Part shown: in pieces, positions 2,685 through 30,847 of the stretch
Numbering within the stretch: the stretch's first letter is position 1
How the letters are laid out: each line of letters begins with the position of its first letter
NCBI GenBank assembly: GCA_022600195.1
Contig: JAHZKX010000006.1
Span: 1 to 64,000, forward strand
Length of the DNA stretch: 64,000 bases
Direction of reading: 5' to 3'
DNA from: Planctomycetota bacterium
GTDB lineage: Bacteria; Planctomycetota; Planctomycetia; Planctomycetales; Planctomycetaceae
Position numbers and translations under genes: made by a program
Notes under the pieces: model-generated
Database searches by the model: none
Seen by the model: only the letters and a program-made list of their open reading frames with translations
What the model was told of the DNA's origin: nothing

Positions 2685-5600
2685 ATGTACAATACAATTA
2701 AACAAAAATTGACATCCAGCTTACACGCATTAATTTTTTTCGGAATTTTATTGTGCGGATCGCCTTCCGGCTGGGCTGATACTAAAAATGATCCAGTCGT
2801 TCAAAAAATACAAGAACGTTTTTTTGAAGAGCAGGTTCGTCCACTCTTGATCAAACACTGCATCGAATGCCACGGCCCCAAAAAACAGTTTGCAGAACTA
2901 CGACTGGACTCTCGTGATCATCTGCTTAAAGGTGGTGAAACGGGCCCTGCCATCAAAGTCAATCATCCTGATGAAAGTCTCTTGATAACCGCAGTTCGCC
3001 GTGAGTCTCTCGAAATGCCTCCCGACAATCCACTCAAAACTGAAGAGATCGAAATATTATCTACATGGATCAAACATGGCGCTGCCTGGCCGCAAAAAGC
3101 AATCATTGGAAATGAGACCAAAATCAACTTTTCTGAACACTGGGCTTTTCAACAAATTCAAAAACCAGTTCGACCTGCTGTGAAAAATACAAACTGGCCA
3201 CAAAATGAAATTGATTATTTTATCCTTTCCAAACTGGAACGACATCAGCTCAAACCTTCTCCTCCTGCAAAATCAGCCACTCTACTGCGTCGCATCGCAT
3301 GGGACCTCACTGGTCTTCCCCCGACGATTGAACAAGTCAAAAGGTTTTCTGACAAACACAATTCCACCTCGATCAAAACCATCATAGATCAACAACTTGC
3401 TTCCTTACATTATGGAGAACGCTGGGGAAGATACTGGCTGGATCTGGCACGCTATGCTGACACCAAAGGCTACGTTTTTTTTGAGAAACCTTCCTTCCAT
3501 ATCGCATATACGTTCCGTGACTATGTAATCAACAGCTTCAATCAGGATAAACCATTTAACGAATTTATTCTGGAACAACTGGCTGCAGATTATTTAAAAG
3601 AGGAAATCCCGCATCAATCTCAGGCAGCACTGGGATTCATTACCGTCGGTCCCAGATTCAAAAACGATACGCATGATATCATCTCAGACCGAATTGACGT
3701 GGTCACACGCGGATTCCTTGGTCTTACGGTAGGTTGTGCACGCTGCCATAACCATAAGTACGACCCCATTTCAATCGATGACTATTATTCTCTGTATGGC
3801 GTCTTCAGAAATTCGCTTGAGCCAATTCATCTCCCTTTTCGGAATCAAGGTAAACTCCCTGCGGACCTCGAAGCACAGGCACAAAAGATCAAGCAAGCCG
3901 CTGAGAATTTAGATCAACTCTATCAACATCAATACGAAAAAATCCTCAATGATACCCATCAGAGATTGGCCGAATACCTTAGCGTAGCACAATCTCGCAG
4001 AAGTGGCCCGAATACCGTAAAATTTGATGTGATCGTTGATGGGGATGATCTCAATCCGGAAGTCTTACAAATCTGGCAAGAATTTCTAGACCAATCTGAA
4101 AACAGCAAATCTCAAGCATTTATGCTCTGGCATCAATTAGCCACGATTCCCAACGATTCATTTGCAATTCAGGCTCCAAACTTTCTACGTCACACATTGA
4201 AAAAGTACACTCAAGACCCTTTGATCCAACTCATTGCCTCTCATCTGTCGAAAAGGAAACTCAAAAGTTTTCAGGATGTGACCTCGGGATATGCGGATCT
4301 ATTTAAAAAACTCGATCACGAATGGGATAACTGGACCGTAGAAGCTCCCAAACCCGGAAGAAAAAAACAACGAAAACATTTTGCGTCTCATAAACAGGCT
4401 TATTTCACAGCATTTTACAGTCCCCATTCGCCATTAGTGATCCCCTTGCATGGCTATACTATTTTAAAGCTGTTTCCAGATCGGAAGTTACAAAAAAAAG
4501 TCAAAGAACTGAACAATGCGTTGGATAAAGCCCGCGCTGATGCACCCATCGAACTGGCACAAATGTTGTCGCTACAGGATGCCACACAAATTATCGAACC
4601 ACGGGTTTTTAAAAGGGGAAATCCAGGTACGCCCGCTCACTCTGTCCCAAGAAGATATTTAACCTTTTTCGACCAGCTCTCCAGTAAACCATTCACACGA
4701 GGGAGTGGAAGGCTGGAACTTGCTCAAGCAATCGTTTCCCCAAAAAACCCGCTGACTGCCAGAGTCATTGTGAATCGTGTCTGGCAGCATCACTTCGGCA
4801 GAGGAATCGTTTCTACACCCAGCGATTTTGGAATTCAAGGAGACTCTCCTTCCCATCCCGAACTTCTGGATCACCTGGCAAGCTGGTTCATGCACAATGG
4901 ATGGTCCATTAAAAAACTGCATCGCTATATCATGCAGTCAGCCACGTATCAACAACAAAGTATTTCTCATGCATACGGCGAAAAAACAGACCCTGCAAAC
5001 AAGCTATTATGGAGAATGAATCGTCGGCGTCAGGACTTTGAAACGATGCGTGACACATTACTTCAGGTAAGCCAGCAGCTCGATACCAAATTCGGTGGAA
5101 AATCAATCAATGGAATCACGTTGAATTCCAACAAACGCAGAACGATTTATACTTCCATCGACCGACAACGTGTGCCTGGCCTGTTGCGTACTTTCGACTT
5201 CCCCTCTCCGGATGTCAGTACTGGAAGCCGAAACTCGACCTCGGTTCCCGGGCAATCTCTGTTCCTGATGAACCACCCCTTAGTCCTGAAATCTGCTGAG
5301 ATTCTGGGAAAAGAAGCAGAACAGACTGCCAATCCAACAATCGGAATCCGACAACTCTATCAGAAAATTTTGCAACGAAAACCAGATCAGGAAGAGTTGA
5401 ATGAAATGCAGAAGTTTCTGGAAGCTGACCAACTCCCGGAAAAACCAGAGTTGACTGCTTCACTATGGGAGTATGGTTATGGCGCCTATGACCAAGAGTC
5501 AAAAAAACTTTCGCACTTTAATCCGCTGCCTTACTGGAATGGTAAACAATTTCAGGGGGGAGAGCGTTTACCCGATCCAAAAATAGGCTGGGTGTTTATT

Positions 5601-6077
5601 GATTCCACAGGAGGCCACCCTGGTAATGACATGCAGCATGTTGCCGTGATTCGCTGGCGTGCTCCTGAAGCAATGGTTGTGTCAATAAAAGGAACTCTCA
5701 AACACGAAATGCCACAGGGAAACGGCATTCGTGGACGTATCCTCGTCGACGGTAAACTGATGCTGGGGCCATGGAAGATTCACCAGAAATCGGTAGAAAC
5801 TAACCTCGATAAAATCATACTGAAAAAAAATGACTCCATCGATTTTATCGTCGATATCGCTGATCATCTGGGATATGACTCTTTTATCTGGTCTCCGGAA
5901 ATCACAATGCAGCCTCTTGAAATAGAAACCACATCGAAGACAAACATAAAACAAACTCCCCAACAGCTATGGAACTATTCCAAAGATTTTAGAAAACCCG
6001 ATTCAGTACAAATAACTCCCTGGCAAAGCCTGGCCCAGATTCTGTTGTTATCCAATGAATTTCAGTTTATCGATTGA
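2685..6077 (+). CDS. Secreted PSCyt1-DUF1549-DUF1553 protein with C-terminal beta domain
   Basis: A 1130-residue exported planctomycete cytochrome-like protein. A signal peptide spans residues ~1-31. A PSCyt1 domain follows with the haem motif CIECH (C59, C62, H63). DUF1549 spans ~194-385 and contains a second C-x2-CH (C351, C354, H355, in CARCHNHKYDP). A charged helical linker covers ~385-660, and DUF1553 (N-R-V-W-Q-H-H-F-G-R-G-I) covers ~673-915. Residues ~930-1100 form an extra beta-rich segment with G-R-I-L-V-D-G-K, reminiscent of carbohydrate-binding or LamG-like sandwiches. No enzyme activity is established for DUF1549/DUF1553. The next gene is the usual DUF1501 partner. In this operon the pair sits between the regulator and three catabolism genes, which suggests periplasmic handling or oxidation of the operon substrate. 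Confidence 0.9.
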   Translation: MYNTIKQKLTSSLHALIFFGILLCGSPSGWADTKNDPVVQKIQERFFEEQVRPLLIKHCIECHGPKKQFAELRLDSRDHLLKGGETGPAIKVNHPDESLLITAVRRESLEMPPDNPLKTEEIEILSTWIKHGAAWPQKAIIGNETKINFSEHWAFQQIQKPVRPAVKNTNWPQNEIDYFILSKLERHQLKPSPPAKSATLLRRIAWDLTGLPPTIEQVKRFSDKHNSTSIKTIIDQQLASLHYGERWGRYWLDLARYADTKGYVFFEKPSFHIAYTFRDYVINSFNQDKPFNEFILEQLAADYLKEEIPHQSQAALGFITVGPRFKNDTHDIISDRIDVVTRGFLGLTVGCARCHNHKYDPISIDDYYSLYGVFRNSLEPIHLPFRNQGKLPADLEAQAQKIKQAAENLDQLYQHQYEKILNDTHQRLAEYLSVAQSRRSGPNTVKFDVIVDGDDLNPEVLQIWQEFLDQSENSKSQAFMLWHQLATIPNDSFAIQAPNFLRHTLKKYTQDPLIQLIASHLSKRKLKSFQDVTSGYADLFKKLDHEWDNWTVEAPKPGRKKQRKHFASHKQAYFTAFYSPHSPLVIPLHGYTILKLFPDRKLQKKVKELNNALDKARADAPIELAQMLSLQDATQIIEPRVFKRGNPGTPAHSVPRRYLTFFDQLSSKPFTRGSGRLELAQAIVSPKNPLTARVIVNRVWQHHFGRGIVSTPSDFGIQGDSPSHPELLDHLASWFMHNGWSIKKLHRYIMQSATYQQQSISHAYGEKTDPANKLLWRMNRRRQDFETMRDTLLQVSQQLDTKFGGKSINGITLNSNKRRTIYTSIDRQRVPGLLRTFDFPSPDVSTGSRNSTSVPGQSLFLMNHPLVLKSAEILGKEAEQTANPTIGIRQLYQKILQRKPDQEELNEMQKFLEADQLPEKPELTASLWEYGYGAYDQESKKLSHFNPLPYWNGKQFQGGERLPDPKIGWVFIDSTGGHPGNDMQHVAVIRWRAPEAMVVSIKGTLKHEMPQGNGIRGRILVDGKLMLGPWKIHQKSVETNLDKIILKKNDSIDFIVDIADHLGYDSFIWSPEITMQPLEIETTSKTNIKQTPQQLWNYSKDFRKPDSVQITPWQSLAQILLLSNEFQFID

Positions 6078-17871: not shown

Positions 17872-18432
17872 ATGTACGAGGAGAAACTTAATTTGACAAC
17901 CATTGACGATGCCGAAACCGTAAACCGACTCCGTGCGGGTGACCTTGCCGCATTTGGTGATCTGTATGACCGGTACGCGCGGCTTGTCAGAAGTCTGTGC
18001 TATGACGGAACAGGCAATCTCAGCGACTCACAAGAACTGTGCCAGGACGTGTTTATGAAAGCTTACCGCCAAATCCATTCGCTTCGTGAACCCTCTAGAT
18101 TTGGCTATTGGCTAACCGGGATCACTCGCAATGCGATCAAGGATTGGCAACGACGCAGTGCTCGTGATCGGCTTCGCTTCGTGATTGATGTTCCAGATGT
18201 ACACGACAGCGACACACGCGAAGATGCTGAGAACGGACTCTTAAAGACGATTTCGGAATTACCCGAAAACGAACGTTTAGCATTGCACTTGTTCTACTTG
18301 GATGAAGTACCTGCATCCGTTGCTCGCGAAATTCTGGGATTGTCGCAATCGGGGTTCTATAAGTTGCTTGATCGCGCTCGTAAACGAGTAGAAGAACTGT
18401 TGACAGATGCCGGAGAGAATAGTGATGAATAG
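17872..18432 (+). CDS. ECF RNA polymerase sigma factor
   Basis: 186 residues from the ATG at 17872; the frame is open upstream to 17755 but that part is unlike sigma factors. Region 2 is seen as A-F-G-D-L-Y-D-R-Y-A-R-L-V, then D-S-Q-E-L-C-Q-D-V-F-M-K-A-Y and F-G-Y-W-L-T-G-I-T-R-N. Region 4 is L-P-E-N-E-R-L-A-L-H-L-F-Y-L-D-E-V-P-A-S-V-A-R-E-I-L-G-L-S. It redirects RNA polymerase to a small regulon. The next gene overlaps by 8 bases and encodes a single-span membrane protein, the usual arrangement for a translationally coupled anti-sigma partner. Confidence 0.9.
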   Translation: MYEEKLNLTTIDDAETVNRLRAGDLAAFGDLYDRYARLVRSLCYDGTGNLSDSQELCQDVFMKAYRQIHSLREPSRFGYWLTGITRNAIKDWQRRSARDRLRFVIDVPDVHDSDTREDAENGLLKTISELPENERLALHLFYLDEVPASVAREILGLSQSGFYKLLDRARKRVEELLTDAGENSDE

Positions 18433-22508: not shown

Positions 22509-22781
22509 TCATTTCAACGGTGCTTTCTTCTCAGTTATGGATGGTGTCTTAGCCGCCATCTCTGCATTGAGTTGTATAAATTCTTGCCACTGGTCTGGGA
22601 CATTGTCCTCATGAAAGATGGCTCCGACAGGGCATTCGACGCGGCACGCGTCGCAGTCAACGCACTCGTCCGGATTGATGTAGAGCATTTGGTTGCCTTC
22701 GTGGAAGCAGTCGCAGGGACAAACGACGACACAGTCTGTGTACTTGCAGCCAGAGCATGGGGCGGTTACGACGTAGGCCAT
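22509..22781 (-). CDS. fdxA: 7Fe ferredoxin (3Fe-4S/4Fe-4S)
   Basis: A 90-residue electron carrier. The cysteine pattern is that of FdxA-type 7Fe ferredoxins. C9, C17 and C50 are placed to bind the 3Fe-4S cluster. C21, C40, C43 and C46 are placed to bind the 4Fe-4S cluster. Extra C12, C23 and C25 occur. The context C-K-Y-T-D-C-V-x-V-C-P-x-D-C-F-x-E-G and I-N-P-D-E-C-V-D-C-x-x-C is diagnostic. The C-terminal tail is basic and short. It is transcribed away from the sigma factor-kinase gene, sharing a 174-base divergent control region. Its redox partner is unknown. Confidence 0.93.
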   Translation of the reverse strand: MAYVVTAPCSGCKYTDCVVVCPCDCFHEGNQMLYINPDECVDCDACRVECPVGAIFHEDNVPDQWQEFIQLNAEMAAKTPSITEKKAPLK

Positions 22782-22955
22782 TCTGGGTACTTTCTAAAAT
22801 GAAATTCGAACTTACAAGAGACAATAGCTGTCTCTTCTCTAGGGGTTCATCCGATTTGCAGTTAAGATTGGCCAAAGAATCTTAAGAATATTCGAGAAAT
22901 TCCCAAATGGTCGCCCAAAATCAACTTTGACAATGGTCCAGAATCATTTACGAGA

Positions 22956-24332
22956 GTGTCGAACTTGAATTCACAAGAGCTACTGCAGATGTATCAAAAT
23001 GGCCAGAGCGAAGCCGCAGCTGCCATTTTTGACCGCTATGTCGCCAGACTGATCGCTTTGGCTCGCAGCCGCATCGGGCCGAAACTCCTTCGACGAGTCG
23101 ATGCCGAGGACATCGTTCAATCGGCATATCGCAGTTTTTTTGTGCACGCCAAAAGAGATGAGTACCAGCTTAATAAGGCAGGTGACTTGTGGCGGCTTCT
23201 GGCGAGCATCACGCTTCACAAGCTCTATGGGCAATTTGAAAAACATACGGCAGCAAAGAGAAGCATCGACTATGAAGAACCCACAGACATGGCCACCGCT
23301 ACTGCAACGGCCCCGGAACCCTCGGCAGAGGAAGTCGTCGCGATAGTCGAAGAATTGCACCTGGTGATCCAAGACCTTCTACCAGAAGAACGACTTGTCC
23401 TTACGGCAAGTCTCCAGGGTCAAGACAACATCGAGATCAGTAGATCCGTTCAAAAATCAGAGAGAACGGTCCGCAGATTATTGGCGAGTGCTAAGCAGAA
23501 GATTGAGCAACGATTGTTGGCTAGTGACACCTCTGATGAAGTATCCCGAACGTCAGTGGTTGAACATGACGCTCCCCTACTCTATTCGGATTATGTTTTG
23601 GAGCAACTATTGGGCTCAGGTGGCATGGGAAAAGTATTTCGAGCGAGAGTGAAGGACACGCAAAAGAAGGTTGCAATAAAGGCACTACACAAAGTACGTC
23701 AGTCCGATGCGCGAGCGGTTTCTCAATTCGCAAAAGAGGCACAGGTCCTTACCAGGTTGCGTCATGCGAATATCGTACGCGTCGAAGGCCTGGGACGATT
23801 CCCGGGCGGAGGATACTTTATGGTGATGGATTATGTTGATGGCGTGGACCTTCAGTCTCGGCTGGAAGTACGACCGTTTCCGATACAAGATGCTCTTGGC
23901 GTAATAAAAAACGTGGCTAGCGCAATCGGTCACGCTCACGACAATGGGATAATTCACTGCGACCTCAAACCGGGAAACGTCTTGCAGAATAAAAATGGCA
24001 ACGTGCTTGTGACAGATTTCGGTTTCGCTTTCCTGATAGCCGGTGGTTCAACAACTCTGGGAAATAGTATTGGAGGTACAGCGGGATACATCGCTCCGGA
24101 GATTATTAGTTGTCGGAGTCTGCCGACTCCCGCTACAGACATTTATAGCCTGGGCGTACTCTTGTGGACTCTTGTCACCGGGACGCTGCCGGAGAAACCG
24201 TTCACACTTTTCAGTGTGGAAGATGACTTGGCACCAATTTCCCGCATTGTAAGACGCTGTCTATCTGATGACCCCAATAAACGCTATCAGACAACGACCG
24301 AGTTGCAGAAGGAAATCATGGCCTTTCGATGA
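22956..24332 (+). CDS. Fusion of ECF-type sigma factor with Ser/Thr protein kinase
   Basis: One uninterrupted 458-residue frame with two regulatory domains and no membrane segment. Residues ~15-185 are a sigma-70-family (ECF) factor: region 2 with R-V-D-A-E-D-I-V-Q-S-A-Y-R-S-F-F, and region 4 with L-L-P-E-E-R-L-V-L-T and a helix-turn-helix around 155-183. Residues ~210-458 are a Hanks-type kinase: glycine loop L-G-S-G-G-M-G-K-V (219-227), K242 in V-A-I-K-A-L, E261, catalytic loop H334-C-D336-L-K-P-G-N341, D354-F-G, A-P-E (380-382) and D395-I-Y-S-L-G. The usual R of HRD is C335. Start is GTG; the first domain would be cut by any later start. It probably couples phosphorylation to promoter selection, either by modifying itself or a bound partner. 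An ECF-kinase pair in one chain is unusual. Confidence 0.9.
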   Translation: MSNLNSQELLQMYQNGQSEAAAAIFDRYVARLIALARSRIGPKLLRRVDAEDIVQSAYRSFFVHAKRDEYQLNKAGDLWRLLASITLHKLYGQFEKHTAAKRSIDYEEPTDMATATATAPEPSAEEVVAIVEELHLVIQDLLPEERLVLTASLQGQDNIEISRSVQKSERTVRRLLASAKQKIEQRLLASDTSDEVSRTSVVEHDAPLLYSDYVLEQLLGSGGMGKVFRARVKDTQKKVAIKALHKVRQSDARAVSQFAKEAQVLTRLRHANIVRVEGLGRFPGGGYFMVMDYVDGVDLQSRLEVRPFPIQDALGVIKNVASAIGHAHDNGIIHCDLKPGNVLQNKNGNVLVTDFGFAFLIAGGSTTLGNSIGGTAGYIAPEIISCRSLPTPATDIYSLGVLLWTLVTGTLPEKPFTLFSVEDDLAPISRIVRRCLSDDPNKRYQTTTELQKEIMAFR

Positions 24333-24350: not shown

Positions 24351-24639
24351 GGACGTCAGGAAACGCCCCCTAATTAGTGCACATTTTATTTGATCTACCT
24401 TAGTTAGTGTATTGAGACTGGCCAAGGTAGCGGCGATAATACTAAGAGCATCAAGGTGGTTAAGCACTCAGCAACCATGACTTGTAAATATATTATGAAA
24501 AAACCGTTAAACGTTTCTCGATATCAGTATTAGAGTATGATTCCTACTTGGTTCGTACAGTTTAACAGATGCAAGTTCGATGCAACTTCGCCTACCCAAA
24601 TTGGGCAGATTTAGTTTCGATCAATTAGAAGAGCGAAAT
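24351..24639. other. Intergenic region with a candidate operator
   Basis: No gene is supported. CTACCTT (24395-24401) and AAGGTAG (24424-24430) form an inverted repeat with a 22-base gap. It could be a regulator site upstream of the second PSCyt1/DUF1501 cassette or part of a weak hairpin. Confidence 0.3.
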
Positions 24640-27033
24640 ATGAAACGATTTTACGCAACGACACTCGTGCTTTGCATAACATCAGTCAGTTATGCGGATG
24701 ATGCTTCAACAACGTCTCTGACCAAAGTCGATTTTGCCCATGAAGTGATGCCCATTCTCCGAAAGCACTGTGTTAAATGCCACGCAGGCAACAAGAAAAA
24801 AGGCGGCCTGGCGATGAACACGCGGGCCGAGCTACTGGCCGGAGGAGAGTCCGGCGCTGTGGTTGTTGCTGGTAATGCTGGAAAAAGCCGGATGATCGAG
24901 TTGCTCGAATCATCTGACGATGCCGAGTGGATGCCTCCAGAGGGCCCCCGCGTTTCGGTAAAAGAAATTGCAACTCTGAAAAAATGGATCGACAAAGGTC
25001 TGCCGTGGGATACAGGGATCACCCTCGGTAATTCCGTCTGGGAACCACCGCTGAAACCACGAGTGGTCTCTCTGCCACCACCACGACACGGGCGTATCCA
25101 TCCCATCGACAGGCTACTGGATGCGGACCTCGCTCTGCGCGGACAATCGCCTCCTCCACAAGTTTCAGACGCAGCATTTCTTCGCCGGGCCACCCTCGAT
25201 GCCATCGGCCTCCTGCCGACGCCGAAAGATTTAGAAAATTTCGTCGCTGATCAGACGAACGATAAACGAGAGAAGCAAATCCAGCTGCTGATGGCGAACG
25301 ACATCGCTTACGCTGACCACTGGCTCACAATGTGGAACGACCTTCTCCGCAATGACTATACCGGCACCGGGTTCATCACCGGCGGGCGCAAGCAAATCAC
25401 TTCGTGGCTCTACGCGTCGCTGCGGGAAAACCAACCATACGACGAATTTGTGCGAGAACTGATTTCACCAACCGCTGAATCGGCTGGCTTCATCGATGGA
25501 ATCAAGTGGCGCGGCGATGTAAACGCAAGCCAGACGCGCGAGATCCAGTTCGCCCAAAACGTCTCGCAGGTCTTTCTCGGTATCAATATGAAATGCGCCA
25601 GTTGTCACGACAGTTTCATTGATCGATGGACCTTGTCAGAGGCCTACAACTTCGCAGCGATTTACTCCGATCGGCCACTCGAACTCAATCGTTGCGATAA
25701 GCCAACTGGCGTAATGGCCACGCCAAAGTGGATCTTCCCAGAGTTGGGAGACATCGATTCGAAAGCCCCCAAAACCAAACGACTCCAGCAGCTGGCCGCA
25801 CTCATGACACATCCCGAAAACGGCCGCTTCACCCGGACGCTCGTCAATCGAATTTGGGCGAGACTCATGGGCCGTGGCATTGTTCATCCGGTCGATGCGA
25901 TGCACACACGGCCCTGGAATGAAGATTTGTTGGACTATCTCGCGGTGCAGTTTGCGAAGGATGGTTATGATTTGAAGAAGTTTATAAGCTTCGTGATGAC
26001 CTCCGAGGCTTATCAGTCAAAGGGTGTGATTCTGGAGAAAGAGCCCGGCGAAGATTATGTATACGCCGGGCCGATTGCCAAGCGGATGACCGCCGAGCAA
26101 CTCATCGATTCAATCTGGCAGATCACGGAGACAAACCCCACTAGCGCGGAAGCAAAAGTAGATCGCGCGGAGAAATCCAAAATTCAAAAACCAAAGTCGA
26201 AAATAGAGAAGTTGACACCCACGCCGATTTCCGCGTATTGGATTTGGCACAGCGGCGAAGTGGGCAAGAAATCGCAGCTGCGAAAAAAGTTTGATCTAAG
26301 CGCGGCTCCAACCGGGGCGAAATTGATGGCGACATGTGACAATGCCTTTGACATGAAAATCAACGGAGCGAAAGTAGCCACGTCTAGAATCTGGACGAAG
26401 CCGGTTTATGTCGACATCACGCAACACCTTCACGCAGGTAAAAACGTGATCGAGGTCGATGCCCGGATGTTTGGAGGAGCCGCTGGATTCATTTGCCAGA
26501 TCGCTCTCCTGGATGGCGCCGAGCAAAAAGTGATCGCAAGCAACAAGAGCTGGGAAGCGCGTCCACCGAAAGGAAGCTGGGCAGCGGCTGCTGAACTGAA
26601 ACCACATGGCCAGCCTCCCTGGGGCGCGATTCTGGATCCCAAAGCGAAATCAGGCCCGCCAACTCTCCCTGCGCAGCCAGTCCGAGCGGCTTTAGTAAAG
26701 AACGATTTTCTGATGCGCTCGCTAGGGAGGCCACATCGCGATCAGGTCGTAACAACCCGGCCAGGAGAACTGACAACCCTGCAAGCAATCGATCTCTCTA
26801 ACGGAGAGATTCTGGCCGAATACCTCCGAAATGGTGCGAAACACTTTGTCGGCAAAGGCTTGACAGGTGAGGAACTGACAGTGCTCCTTTTTCGTTACGC
26901 CCTGTCGCGAGAACCCACAACCACAGAGCGAACCGTTCTGGCAAAAGTCGCCGGGGATGGACGCAATCCAATTGCCGTTGAAGACCTTCTATGGATCGTC
27001 TTTATGCAACCTGAATTTCAAATGATTCGTTAA
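24640..27033 (+). CDS. Secreted PSCyt1-DUF1549-DUF1553 protein with inserted sugar-binding-like domain
   Basis: 797 residues from the ATG at 24640, chosen because M-K-R-F-Y-A-T begins a normal signal peptide (~1-20). The PSCyt1 haem motif is C44-V-K-C47-H48, with the M-P-P-E-G-P downstream methionine region. DUF1549 (~165-370) includes C319-A-S-C-H323. DUF1553 begins near 385 (T-L-V-N-R-I-W-A-R-L-M-G-R-G-I). It is split by an inserted segment at ~530-650 (Y-W-I-W-H, C-D-N-A-F-D-M-K-I-N-G, G-K-N-V-I-E-V-D-A) that resembles the galactose-binding-like beta domain of alpha-L-rhamnosidases. The DUF1553 tail resumes near 685. The following DUF1501 and hydrolase genes are spaced 18 and 30 bases apart. 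The enzyme role is unknown. Confidence 0.88.
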   Translation: MKRFYATTLVLCITSVSYADDASTTSLTKVDFAHEVMPILRKHCVKCHAGNKKKGGLAMNTRAELLAGGESGAVVVAGNAGKSRMIELLESSDDAEWMPPEGPRVSVKEIATLKKWIDKGLPWDTGITLGNSVWEPPLKPRVVSLPPPRHGRIHPIDRLLDADLALRGQSPPPQVSDAAFLRRATLDAIGLLPTPKDLENFVADQTNDKREKQIQLLMANDIAYADHWLTMWNDLLRNDYTGTGFITGGRKQITSWLYASLRENQPYDEFVRELISPTAESAGFIDGIKWRGDVNASQTREIQFAQNVSQVFLGINMKCASCHDSFIDRWTLSEAYNFAAIYSDRPLELNRCDKPTGVMATPKWIFPELGDIDSKAPKTKRLQQLAALMTHPENGRFTRTLVNRIWARLMGRGIVHPVDAMHTRPWNEDLLDYLAVQFAKDGYDLKKFISFVMTSEAYQSKGVILEKEPGEDYVYAGPIAKRMTAEQLIDSIWQITETNPTSAEAKVDRAEKSKIQKPKSKIEKLTPTPISAYWIWHSGEVGKKSQLRKKFDLSAAPTGAKLMATCDNAFDMKINGAKVATSRIWTKPVYVDITQHLHAGKNVIEVDARMFGGAAGFICQIALLDGAEQKVIASNKSWEARPPKGSWAAAAELKPHGQPPWGAILDPKAKSGPPTLPAQPVRAALVKNDFLMRSLGRPHRDQVVTTRPGELTTLQAIDLSNGEILAEYLRNGAKHFVGKGLTGEELTVLLFRYALSREPTTTERTVLAKVAGDGRNPIAVEDLLWIVFMQPEFQMIR

Positions 27034-27051
27034 TTCAAAGTCTTAAATCTC

Positions 27052-28488
27052 ATGATGACACTAGAAGAAAAAATCTCACGTCGTGATCTCCTTAAAAATC
27101 TCAGCGCTGCAGCTGTTGGCGCTCTAGCAACGGGAGCCCCTCGTGCCTGGGCCAGTTCTGAAGCCGTTATACATCCGCCCGCCAAAGCCGATTCCTGCAT
27201 CCTCATCTGGCTCGCCGGAGGAATGGCTGCCCCGGACACGTTCGATCCGAAGCGTTATCTGCCCTTCGAAAAAGGACTCGATGTAAAGAAAATTCTCAGC
27301 ACGTTCCCGGAAATCGACACCGTCGTCGATAACGTCAAAATCACAAAGGGTATGGAGCGTATTGCACAGGTCATGGATCGTGGCACACTGATCCGCTCTG
27401 CAGTGCAACCGGACCTGGGCCATATTCTTCATTCCCGACACCAATACCATTGGCACACGGGCTACGTCCCACCACTGACCGTGGCTGCTCCTCACATTGG
27501 AGCCTGGATGGCAAAAGTCTTAGGCCCGAAAAACCCCGTCGTTCCACCGTTCATCAACATTGGACAACGCCTTGAAGGTGTCGGCGAAAAAGAGGAACTC
27601 AAGGCCTTCACCACCGGCGGATTCTTTGGTACAGAATATGGCCCGATGAACCTGCCCTACCCGCAAGACGCTGTCCGCTCTGTTCAACCACCGAAGGGTA
27701 TGGAGCCCGGGCGGTTCGCCAATCGCTACCGGTATTACCGTGAGTTGATTGACCAGAACCCCAATCGCGACTGGATGACCGATTACCAGCAGGAATCCAT
27801 GCTGCGTTCGATGGATGCGGCACATCGCCTGTTGCAGTCGAAGGAAAAACACGCCTTTGACCTTACTTTGGAACCGAAGGAGTCTCGTGAAATTTACGAC
27901 ACAGGCCGATTCGGAAGAGGTTGTCTTCTGGCACGCCGTCTGGTTGAATCGGGAGCCCGGTTTGTCGAAGTCACCACCGAATACATACCGTTTATCCATT
28001 GGGATACTCATGAAAATGGTCACACCACTGTGAAACGTCTCAAGCAGGAGATCGACAGACCGATTGCACAGCTGATTCTCGATCTTGAAGCAAAAGGTCT
28101 GCTCGACCGCACCCTGATCGTCATCGCCAGTGAGTTCAGCCGCGACATGATGATTGAGGGTGTCCCGGGCTCTAACGCGAAAGACCAGTCACGCGCCAAG
28201 ACGGAAAAACTAGCGGAGATGAAACACTACGGGCTGCATCGACATTTCACCGGCGGTACGAGCGTCGCAATGTTTGGCGGTGGTGTCAAAAAGGGGTTCC
28301 TCTACGGCAAGACCGCCGACGAAAGGCCCTTGCTTGCAGTCGAAAATCCGGTGTCCGTCGAAGACTTGCACGCCACAATCTTCACTGCAATGGGCGTTAG
28401 CCCAAAAACGGCTTACGAAGTCGAGAAACGCCCGTTTTTCGCGACGAAGGACGGACACGGCAAACCGGTGACAGAAATTTTTGCCTGA
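27052..28488 (+). CDS. DUF1501 protein, Tat-exported, divergent active-site region
   Basis: 478 residues with a twin-arginine signal (S-R-R-D-L-L-K) and Ala-rich h-region. The fold motifs C-I-L-I-W-L-A-G-G-M-A-A-P-D-T-F-D-P-K and V-E-D-L-H-A-T-I are kept. However, the G-G-E-F-G-R-T-P block reads A-S-E-F-S-R-D-M, and the G-R-D-H-x-H block is replaced by K-H-Y-G-L-H-R-H-F. The S/G-H of the first motif is also changed (A-A-P-D-T). It pairs with the preceding DUF1549/1553 gene. An in-frame second ATG at 27055 is an equally possible start. It probably represents a separate DUF1501 subgroup. Confidence 0.88.
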   Translation: MMTLEEKISRRDLLKNLSAAAVGALATGAPRAWASSEAVIHPPAKADSCILIWLAGGMAAPDTFDPKRYLPFEKGLDVKKILSTFPEIDTVVDNVKITKGMERIAQVMDRGTLIRSAVQPDLGHILHSRHQYHWHTGYVPPLTVAAPHIGAWMAKVLGPKNPVVPPFINIGQRLEGVGEKEELKAFTTGGFFGTEYGPMNLPYPQDAVRSVQPPKGMEPGRFANRYRYYRELIDQNPNRDWMTDYQQESMLRSMDAAHRLLQSKEKHAFDLTLEPKESREIYDTGRFGRGCLLARRLVESGARFVEVTTEYIPFIHWDTHENGHTTVKRLKQEIDRPIAQLILDLEAKGLLDRTLIVIASEFSRDMMIEGVPGSNAKDQSRAKTEKLAEMKHYGLHRHFTGGTSVAMFGGGVKKGFLYGKTADERPLLAVENPVSVEDLHATIFTAMGVSPKTAYEVEKRPFFATKDGHGKPVTEIFA

Positions 28489-30319: not shown

Positions 30320-30847
30320 ATGGTACAGGACGAAGATCAAAAGTCACTATTCATGAACTGGCTCGACGACCATGCAGCGTCAGTCATGAAGGTAGCGCGC
30401 GCATACACCCTGACCAGCGAGGAATGCCAGGATCTCGCTCAGGAAATTCTGCTTCAGGCCTGGCGATCCCTTCCAAAATTCGAAGGCCGGGCAAGCCCCG
30501 CGACGTGGTTTTATCGTGTAGCACTACAAACCGCCATGAATTGGAAAAGGAAGGACAAGCCTCGTCGATCAAGACAGAAACCATTGCTGGAGGTGCAAGC
30601 CGTAGCAACAAACGGCGCTGACAGTGCCGAGCAAGCTCAGCAACGAGATACCGTTGAGCAGCTTTACAAAGCAATTCACCAATTAGCGCAAACCGATGCA
30701 GCATTAGTACTGCTTTACCTCGACGAACTCAGTTATCAAGAGATGGCCGAAGTACTGGGCATCTCAGAAAGCAACGTTGGCGTGAAATTGAACCGGGTGA
30801 AAAAAACTCTGGGTGTACTGATGAATGGAGAATCCCATGGATCCTGA
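30320..30847 (+). CDS. ECF RNA polymerase sigma factor
   Basis: 175 residues. Region 2 is recognisable as V-A-R-A-Y-T-L-T-S-E-E-C-Q-D-L-A-Q-E-I-L-L-Q-A-W-R-S-L and A-T-W-F-Y-R-V-A-L-Q-T-A. Region 4 is Q-T-D-A-A-L-V-L-L-Y-L-D-E-L-S-Y-Q-E-M-A-E-V-L-G-I-S-E-S-N-V-G-V-K-L-N-R. The latter is typical of SigW-like ECF factors with a V-G-V-K-L-x-R recognition helix. GAGG precedes the ATG by about 5 bases. The next gene overlaps it and encodes a membrane protein, presumably its regulator. Confidence 0.92.
   Translation: MVQDEDQKSLFMNWLDDHAASVMKVARAYTLTSEECQDLAQEILLQAWRSLPKFEGRASPATWFYRVALQTAMNWKRKDKPRRSRQKPLLEVQAVATNGADSAEQAQQRDTVEQLYKAIHQLAQTDAALVLLYLDELSYQEMAEVLGISESNVGVKLNRVKKTLGVLMNGESHGS

Follow-up and report, generated by a model that had tools for sequence, protein, structure and literature searches.

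An ECF sigma factor and a Hanks-type Ser/Thr kinase are joined in one soluble protein in a planctomycete genome that probably belongs to the genus Gimesia, and the fusion recurs in other planctomycetes. The window, by which we mean the whole stretch of 64,000 nucleotides analysed here, lies on a 91-kb contig of a genome assembled into 84 contigs (6.58 Mb, 99.99% complete). Read at the level of sequence, the fusion is conserved and retains its catalytic residues, its kinase half falls into a single clade, and it is linked to a divergent ferredoxin gene and to a bipartite DNA element. Fused and separate forms of the two proteins interleave, and an N-terminal domain of the separate kinases is absent from the fusions. 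We propose that the protein would act as a one-chain cytosolic sigma switch, with the kinase half phosphorylating the sigma half to which it is joined, or that of a partner chain, and we give this proposal an even chance of being right.

Gene architecture and conservation

The fusion gene is a single open frame at 22956..24332 on the forward strand that encodes 458 amino acids from a GTG start, with a TTG three codons later as an alternative start. Its sigma half (residues 8-187; 22977..23516, forward strand) consists of sigma2 and sigma4 only, includes the polymerase-contact motif and thus belongs to the ECF factors; it is matched by Sigma70_ECF in Pfam (PF07638, E 6.8e-14, above the cut-off) and by the NCBIfam model of the sigma70-ECF superfamily (TIGR02937, 43.7 bits against a cut-off of 42.9). 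A fast-evolving linker of 23 residues (188-210; 23517..23585, forward strand) leads into the kinase half (residues 211-458; 23586..24329, forward strand), in which Pkinase (PF00069) matches residues 213-414 with an E-value of 2.8e-47. The kinase half has the Lys, alphaC Glu, HxD, Asn, DFG and APE of a Hanks-type kinase, with its catalytic loop HCD at 23955-23963 on the forward strand, and its nearest solved relatives by sequence are StkP and PknB. No membrane span was seen in a hydropathy scan of the 458 residues (highest 19-residue mean 1.51), and the Pfam and NCBIfam scans of the fusion gave no sensor domain. Two further ECF sigma matches to TIGR02937 lie on the same contig, at 17950-18399 and 30371-30811 of the window.

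A first-pass annotation, made from the letters of the window, had described sigma regions followed about 25 residues later by a kinase core, in one frame and without a membrane span, in a planctomycete setting. The domain matches, the gap of about 23 residues, the hydropathy profile and the 30 planctomycete loci described below all agree with that architecture; what the annotation overlooked is the ferredoxin partner, the bipartite DNA element and the non-RD lineage of the kinase.

The same annotation had allowed that the fusion might be an assembly join of two genes, and this case is excluded by the fused orthologues in the genus and by the number of distinct fused loci. Nearly full-length orthologues with 69-81% identity occur in 7 of the 16 other genomes of the genus, so that 8 of 17 carry the fusion when the window's own is included, and more distant fusions with 36-46% identity were found in other genera and families (59 genomes searched, own included). 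Altogether 30 distinct fused loci, window included, were counted in planctomycetes after removal of the repeats L046, L047, L069, L102 and L110. Among 392 sampled genomes of the phylum, 10 (own included) have matches at E <= 1e-50, an undercount because more distant fusions score below this threshold. Comparison with five orthologues of the genus gave dN values of 0.05-0.19 (sigma half) and 0.13-0.22 (kinase half), well below dS, which was at least 0.38; in the linker dN was 0.21-0.49, a faster change at the protein level than in either half, and the length of the linker ranges from 11 to 50 residues across the 30 fusions.

A separate kinase gene starting near 23560 had been the other case foreseen. 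Its sole candidate start is a GTG at 23556 (residue 201), and this start is not conserved, because residue 201 is Val in L011-L013 and another residue in L014, L015 and L017; the fusion is upheld here too. In a related locus (L040, 1486-2955), sigma and kinase share one frame that is split by a single in-frame TAG, and in L018 and L041, which carry the same genus code, the two are fused. This TAG may mark a recent separation of the two genes, be read through, or reflect a sequencing error.

Kinase lineage and alternation of fused and separate forms

The fused kinases are not RD kinases, the class controlled through the activation loop, as Arg is absent before the catalytic Asp in all 30; the residue there is Cys in 24, including the window's HCD, Gly in five and Ala in one. 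Eleven pairs of separate sigma and kinase genes that are linked to a ferredoxin gene show a similar composition (Cys in 8, Gly in 2, one unread). Of 43 rows labelled as other kinases, 39 have Arg at this position; the 43 include L024 and L045, which are in truth fusions. Among the 19 large kinases beside sigma factors of the serine type (Ser-type, defined by the serine at residue 56 discussed below), 13 have Arg and 4 have Cys. On a quick tree of the 109 out of 119 kinase rows with at least 170 residues, the kinases of the 30 fusions and of 10 of the 11 ferredoxin-linked pairs share one branch against 69 others (SH-aLRT 89), with no intruder. Quick trees of the kinases and of the sigma factors each place seven changes between the fused and the separate state; well-supported branches of the sigma tree force two of its seven, and many forks are weak.

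The alphaG region is a substrate-docking surface of kinases. The stretch where it should lie is 24 residues long in ten fusions (the eight of the genus, including the window's, with L049 and L051) and 30-48 residues long in nineteen, while L048 is cut. This short stretch and the separate non-RD lineage would suit a reading in which the fusion merely tethers the kinase to promoters through sigma, the true substrate being polymerase, the ferredoxin or another protein, as would the fact that no neighbour gene but the ferredoxin recurs in most of the 25 loci compared. We regard that reading as quite improbable: related kinases adjoin sigma genes as separate proteins, and this layout goes with direct phosphorylation of the sigma factor in group ECF43, according to the sections of PMC8999054 and PMC13147305 available to us.

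The divergent ferredoxin gene

Back to back with the fusion, at 22509..22781 on the reverse strand, lies one of the two genes for FdxA-type ferredoxins in the genome. Its 90-residue product has the FdxA cysteine pattern and matches ferredoxin I with an E-value of 1e-33, but its score with the FdxA_Protbact profile, 117.5 bits, is below the cut-off of 135. A divergent ferredoxin gene starts within 600 bases of the fusion at 28 of the 30 fused loci (the exceptions are L078 and L109). Pairs of a Ser-type sigma gene and a separate short kinase gene have one too in 11 of 13 cases (exceptions L068 and L070). Among 136 control ECF genes, for 8 of which the upstream sequence covered less than 600 bases, there was one such case (L188, 589 bases away). 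By class, the counts were 0 of 19 for Ser-type sigma genes beside a large kinase, 0 of 37 for those lacking a same-strand kinase, 0 of 16 for other ECF genes that have a kinase and 1 of 64 for other ECF genes that have none.

Within the genus, a core FdxA copy was found in 16 of 17 genomes, the seventeenth (74% complete) giving no match. Each of the 8 genomes with the fusion has exactly one extra FdxA gene, located beside it, and the 8 others with an FdxA match have no extra copy. In a tree of ferredoxins, a branch separates 39 linked ones from 17 others (SH-aLRT 83); 16 of these comparison sequences come from the window's genus, and just one branch of the tree is well supported. The closest solved relatives of the linked ferredoxins are FdxA and 7Fe ferredoxin I, with which they share the eight cluster cysteines, present in 39 of 39; they differ in standing back to back with a sigma-kinase and, often, in an extra Cys at position 23 (25 of 39), where the 16 core copies of the genus have Val. 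Two irregular arrangements were seen: L050 has a tandem pair of ferredoxin genes (5211-5746) beside a sigma/kinase pair, and in L011 a 22-residue second ferredoxin piece (2458-2523) directly follows the full gene, like a partial duplication. A second ECF sigma gene, acidic at residue 56, lies downstream of the ferredoxin gene on the same strand in L016 (156-803) and L102 (4805-5599).

When gene neighbours were compared across 25 loci, no other neighbour as constant as the ferredoxin was found. Families present in at least three of these loci were antisense frames, DUF1501 (7 loci), PSCyt (5 loci) and a few small groups, and DUF1501 and PSCyt are common planctomycete families. Downstream of the window's fusion, a PSCyt1/PSCyt2/PSD1 protein is followed by a DUF1501 protein (24580-28488); these are families of unknown function that recur at other loci.

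The bipartite element between the two genes

In the intergenic region between ferredoxin and fusion (22782-22955), motif search found on the forward strand a bipartite element at 22849..22874, made up of ATCC (22849-22852), 16 bases and TGGCCA (22869-22874). Across loci it takes the approximate form AT[GC]C, 16 or 17 bases, [CT]GG[ACT]CA, and occurs in 32 of the 33 intergenic regions searched, from which six of the genus's eight had been excluded as near-copies; its log-likelihood ratio was 172.1, against 58.5-73.8 in eight shuffled sets. Scanned toward the sigma gene, it exceeded shuffles in 25 of 26 fused and 11 of 11 paired loci with a ferredoxin, figures that are not independent, these being the loci that the boxes were derived from; the scan covered 26 of the 28 ferredoxin-linked fusions, leaving out L024 and L045. 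On the opposite strand it exceeded shuffles in none of these loci. The element is weak at other Ser-type sigma genes (13 of 56 forward, 7 of 56 reverse), and no element above shuffles was found in the two fusions without a ferredoxin (L078 and L109) or in two pairs without one. Its spacing of 16-17 bases is that expected of ECF promoters, and this promoter-like spacing makes 22849-22874 a candidate ECF-type promoter. The active sigma factor would use it to transcribe either the fusion gene or the ferredoxin gene, or both; the lack of any excess over shuffles in L078 and L109 means that it may belong to the ferredoxin gene. A search for a wider regulon with the Gimesia form of the element in 17 genomes of the genus gave no site beyond the locus that stood out: the 8 that carry the fusion had 3-6 hits each, and the 9 that lack it had 1-8.

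The linkage suggests that the ferredoxin is a dedicated partner of the sigma-kinase, acting as its output, as a redox or iron input, or as both in a feedback loop. It could be output alone: the sigma-kinase would sense some other cytosolic signal and turn on a spare ferredoxin under stress. The second FdxA gene, found only in the genomes of the genus that have the fusion, fits this, as does the failure to find the element in the two fusions without a ferredoxin. The fusion itself has no sensor domain that Pfam or NCBIfam scans could find, and the 25 loci hold no other conserved neighbour able to supply a signal, both of which count against it. We consider output alone a serious possibility, if one that falls short of even, and it differs from our best explanation in one step only.

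Serines on the polymerase-contact stretch

The motif DxxDxxQE is reported to be the polymerase contact of ECF factors (PMC13147305, in the portion available). In the window's protein the corresponding sigma2.2 stretch, DAEDIVQSAYRS (residues 49-60; 23100..23135, forward strand), has an intact DAED, and the canonical Glu is replaced by Ser56 (codon 23121-23123, forward strand), with Ser60 (codon 23133-23135, forward strand) at its end. Throughout the sigma half and the linker, three Ser/Thr positions alone are invariant across the 30 fusions: Ser56, Ser60 and the Ser/Thr at 171. The search pattern that demands Ser56 played no part in finding 20 of the 30. In a sample of 77 ECF factors drawn from four planctomycete genomes, residue 56 is acidic (Glu/Asp) in 66 and a serine in 2. 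The sample comprises those sigma frames, out of 81, that scored 60 bits or more in 80 regions, mostly short frames; the regions were hand-chosen among the matches listed (253 in all), and two other factors of the window's contig were left out. For the 15 kinase-adjacent factors among the 77, the residue was acidic in 11 and Ser in 1.

If the kinase half phosphorylates sigma, the sites would most likely be Ser56 and/or Ser60. Since Ser56 sits where ECF factors usually have Glu or Asp, phosphate there would supply the missing charge and let sigma bind RNA polymerase, so that phosphorylation would activate rather than inhibit. The first-pass annotation had suggested that the kinase might act on the sigma half of the same protein, and this part of it gains from our comparison: related sigma and kinase genes are adjacent, their fused and separate forms interleave, and the catalytic Lys, His and Asp, the DFG Asp and the two contact-stretch serines are all kept in 30 of 30 fusions. 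The direct phosphorylation that it presupposes is a prediction.

An unlikely alternative reading of the chain is that the kinase half serves as an inhibitor or scaffold that holds sigma inactive until a signal, perhaps the ferredoxin, releases it, with phosphorylation incidental or serving to shut the factor off. C-terminal extensions that control ECF factors without phosphorylation have been described, as far as PMC8999054 was accessible, and the intact DAED might allow the sigma factor, once free, to bind polymerase. The four catalytic residues that every fusion has retained would be superfluous in a scaffold; the alphaC Glu is present in 29, L024 having lost it.

Against the phospho-Ser56 idea stand 37 unfused Ser-type sigma genes that have no adjoining kinase on the same strand, while 13 others adjoin a short kinase and 19 a large one; these 37 rule out Ser56 as a strict mark of kinase linkage. 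The intact DAED, with which the factor might not depend on phosphate for polymerase binding, also counts against the idea, as do the 11 acidic residues among the 15 kinase-adjacent factors. One set of loci was collected with a pattern demanding Ser56 and is unusable as a test of that linkage.

An N-terminal domain on the separate kinases

Separate kinases beside Ser-type sigma factors carry an N-terminal domain of about 130 residues, for which a profile was built here (calls at E < 1e-5). Its consensus resembles ELIxIDLEYRWR...EEYRVRxxWGDRPSHDEF (kinases in L059-L125), and no Pfam match above cut-off to it was found in the four kinases scanned. Of 32 kinases beside Ser-type sigma factors, 29 have the domain, and L040 (the split fusion), L079 and L114 do not; the profile was built from 10 of these 29, which leaves 17 of the 19 large kinases plus L068 and L070 as independent cases. 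The domain occurs on none of 17 kinases beside other ECF factors and on none of the 30 fusions, and on 15 of 22 other kinases in Ser-type loci compared with 2 of 22 elsewhere. For 21 of the 37 kinase-less Ser-type sigma genes there was no frame with the domain in the fetched stretch, some stretches being short. In L066 (5962-7344), a Ser-type ECF sigma gene is immediately followed by a 256-residue frame that holds the domain and an FHA-like stretch, without a kinase.

On this distribution, the likeliest reading is that in the two-gene relatives the domain docks the kinase onto its Ser-type sigma factor, and that covalent fusion would make it dispensable. A bolder reading, which goes beyond our best explanation, would be that the ferredoxin reports iron-sulfur or redox state directly to a kinase covalently joined to its sigma factor, that phosphoserine 56 or 60, formed in cis, replaces the conserved glutamate, and that fusion replaced the docking domain several times. 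We put forward this complete chain of steps tentatively, and think it rather unlikely that all of it will hold.

Comparison with described systems

Among characterised systems, the fusion would work most like the phosphorylation control of ECF43, in cis. ECF43 (EcfP/PknT of Vibrio parahaemolyticus, EcfK/PknS of Xanthomonas citri) likewise combines an ECF sigma factor with a Hanks-type kinase, and experiments have demonstrated that its factors are phosphorylated by the neighbouring kinase (PMC13147305, PMC8999054, both available in part). In both, phosphate on the sigma2 face that touches polymerase is the predicted means of control. In excerpts of the same two papers, ECF43 is a system of two genes with a transmembrane PknS, whereas the fusion is one chain without a membrane span and is accompanied by a ferredoxin. 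EcfP is reported there to lack the acidic part of the DxxDxxQE contact motif, and ECF43 factors typically to lack DAED; in the window's fusion DAED is complete and Ser stands in for the Glu that should follow, with both Asp of DxxD kept in 30 of 30 fusions, which by this feature fall outside ECF43. With DAED in place, the EcfP mechanism cannot be carried over unchanged, and a simple EcfP/PknT scheme, with phospho-Thr replacing the missing DAED, is ruled out.

Several planctomycete groups (ECF59, ECF61, ECF62 and ECF217) are, like the fusion, predicted to be under the control of a neighbouring kinase (PMC8999054, partial text). The parts of PMC8103513 and PMC8999054 at hand describe them as gene neighbours and mention no ferredoxin, in contrast to the single chain studied here; a neighbouring kinase is found for the 13 and 19 unfused Ser-type relatives and lacking for 37. 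The Ser-type factors may belong to ECF59, because a phosphorylated serine has been proposed there as well (PMC8103513, in part). Groups ECF41, ECF42, ECF57, ECF238 and ECF243 resemble the fusion in having a regulatory domain at the C-terminus of sigma; in the accessible text of PMC8999054 these extensions are SnoaL-like, TPR, WD40, Cys-rich or anti-sigma, and none is named as a kinase.

Our search of titles and abstract beginnings found no paper on a sigma-kinase fusion, and the ECF classification papers may contain an earlier mention. The fusion architecture may also be among the 307 kinase architectures reported for planctomycetes and their relatives (PMC11032199, partial text). The principle of a kinase-controlled ECF factor is already known, and it is the combination of a single chain, a ferredoxin and a non-RD clade that we did not find in the literature as far as it was accessible.

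Biological significance

Planctomycetes have dozens of ECF factors and kinases per genome; the window's genome alone has at least 51 sigma matches, and 41 matches to the fusion that are nearly all kinases. The absence of the N-terminal domain from the fusions offers a testable rule for how the right sigma factors and kinases are kept together. Direct phosphorylation of a sigma factor by a kinase is known from few cases, which in the literature accessible to us are two-protein systems. A natural single chain provides a defined pair of enzyme and substrate, so that experiments on a single purified protein can ask how phosphate turns such a factor on or off, and the ferredoxin link is a first lead to its signal or target gene. 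With the protein that directs where polymerase starts and its probable activating enzyme in one chain, the fusion suggests a compact, self-contained gene switch. If the ferredoxin does report to the kinase, sensing, phosphotransfer and promoter choice would be gathered in one small cytosolic complex, and a full pathway would be encoded in two genes.
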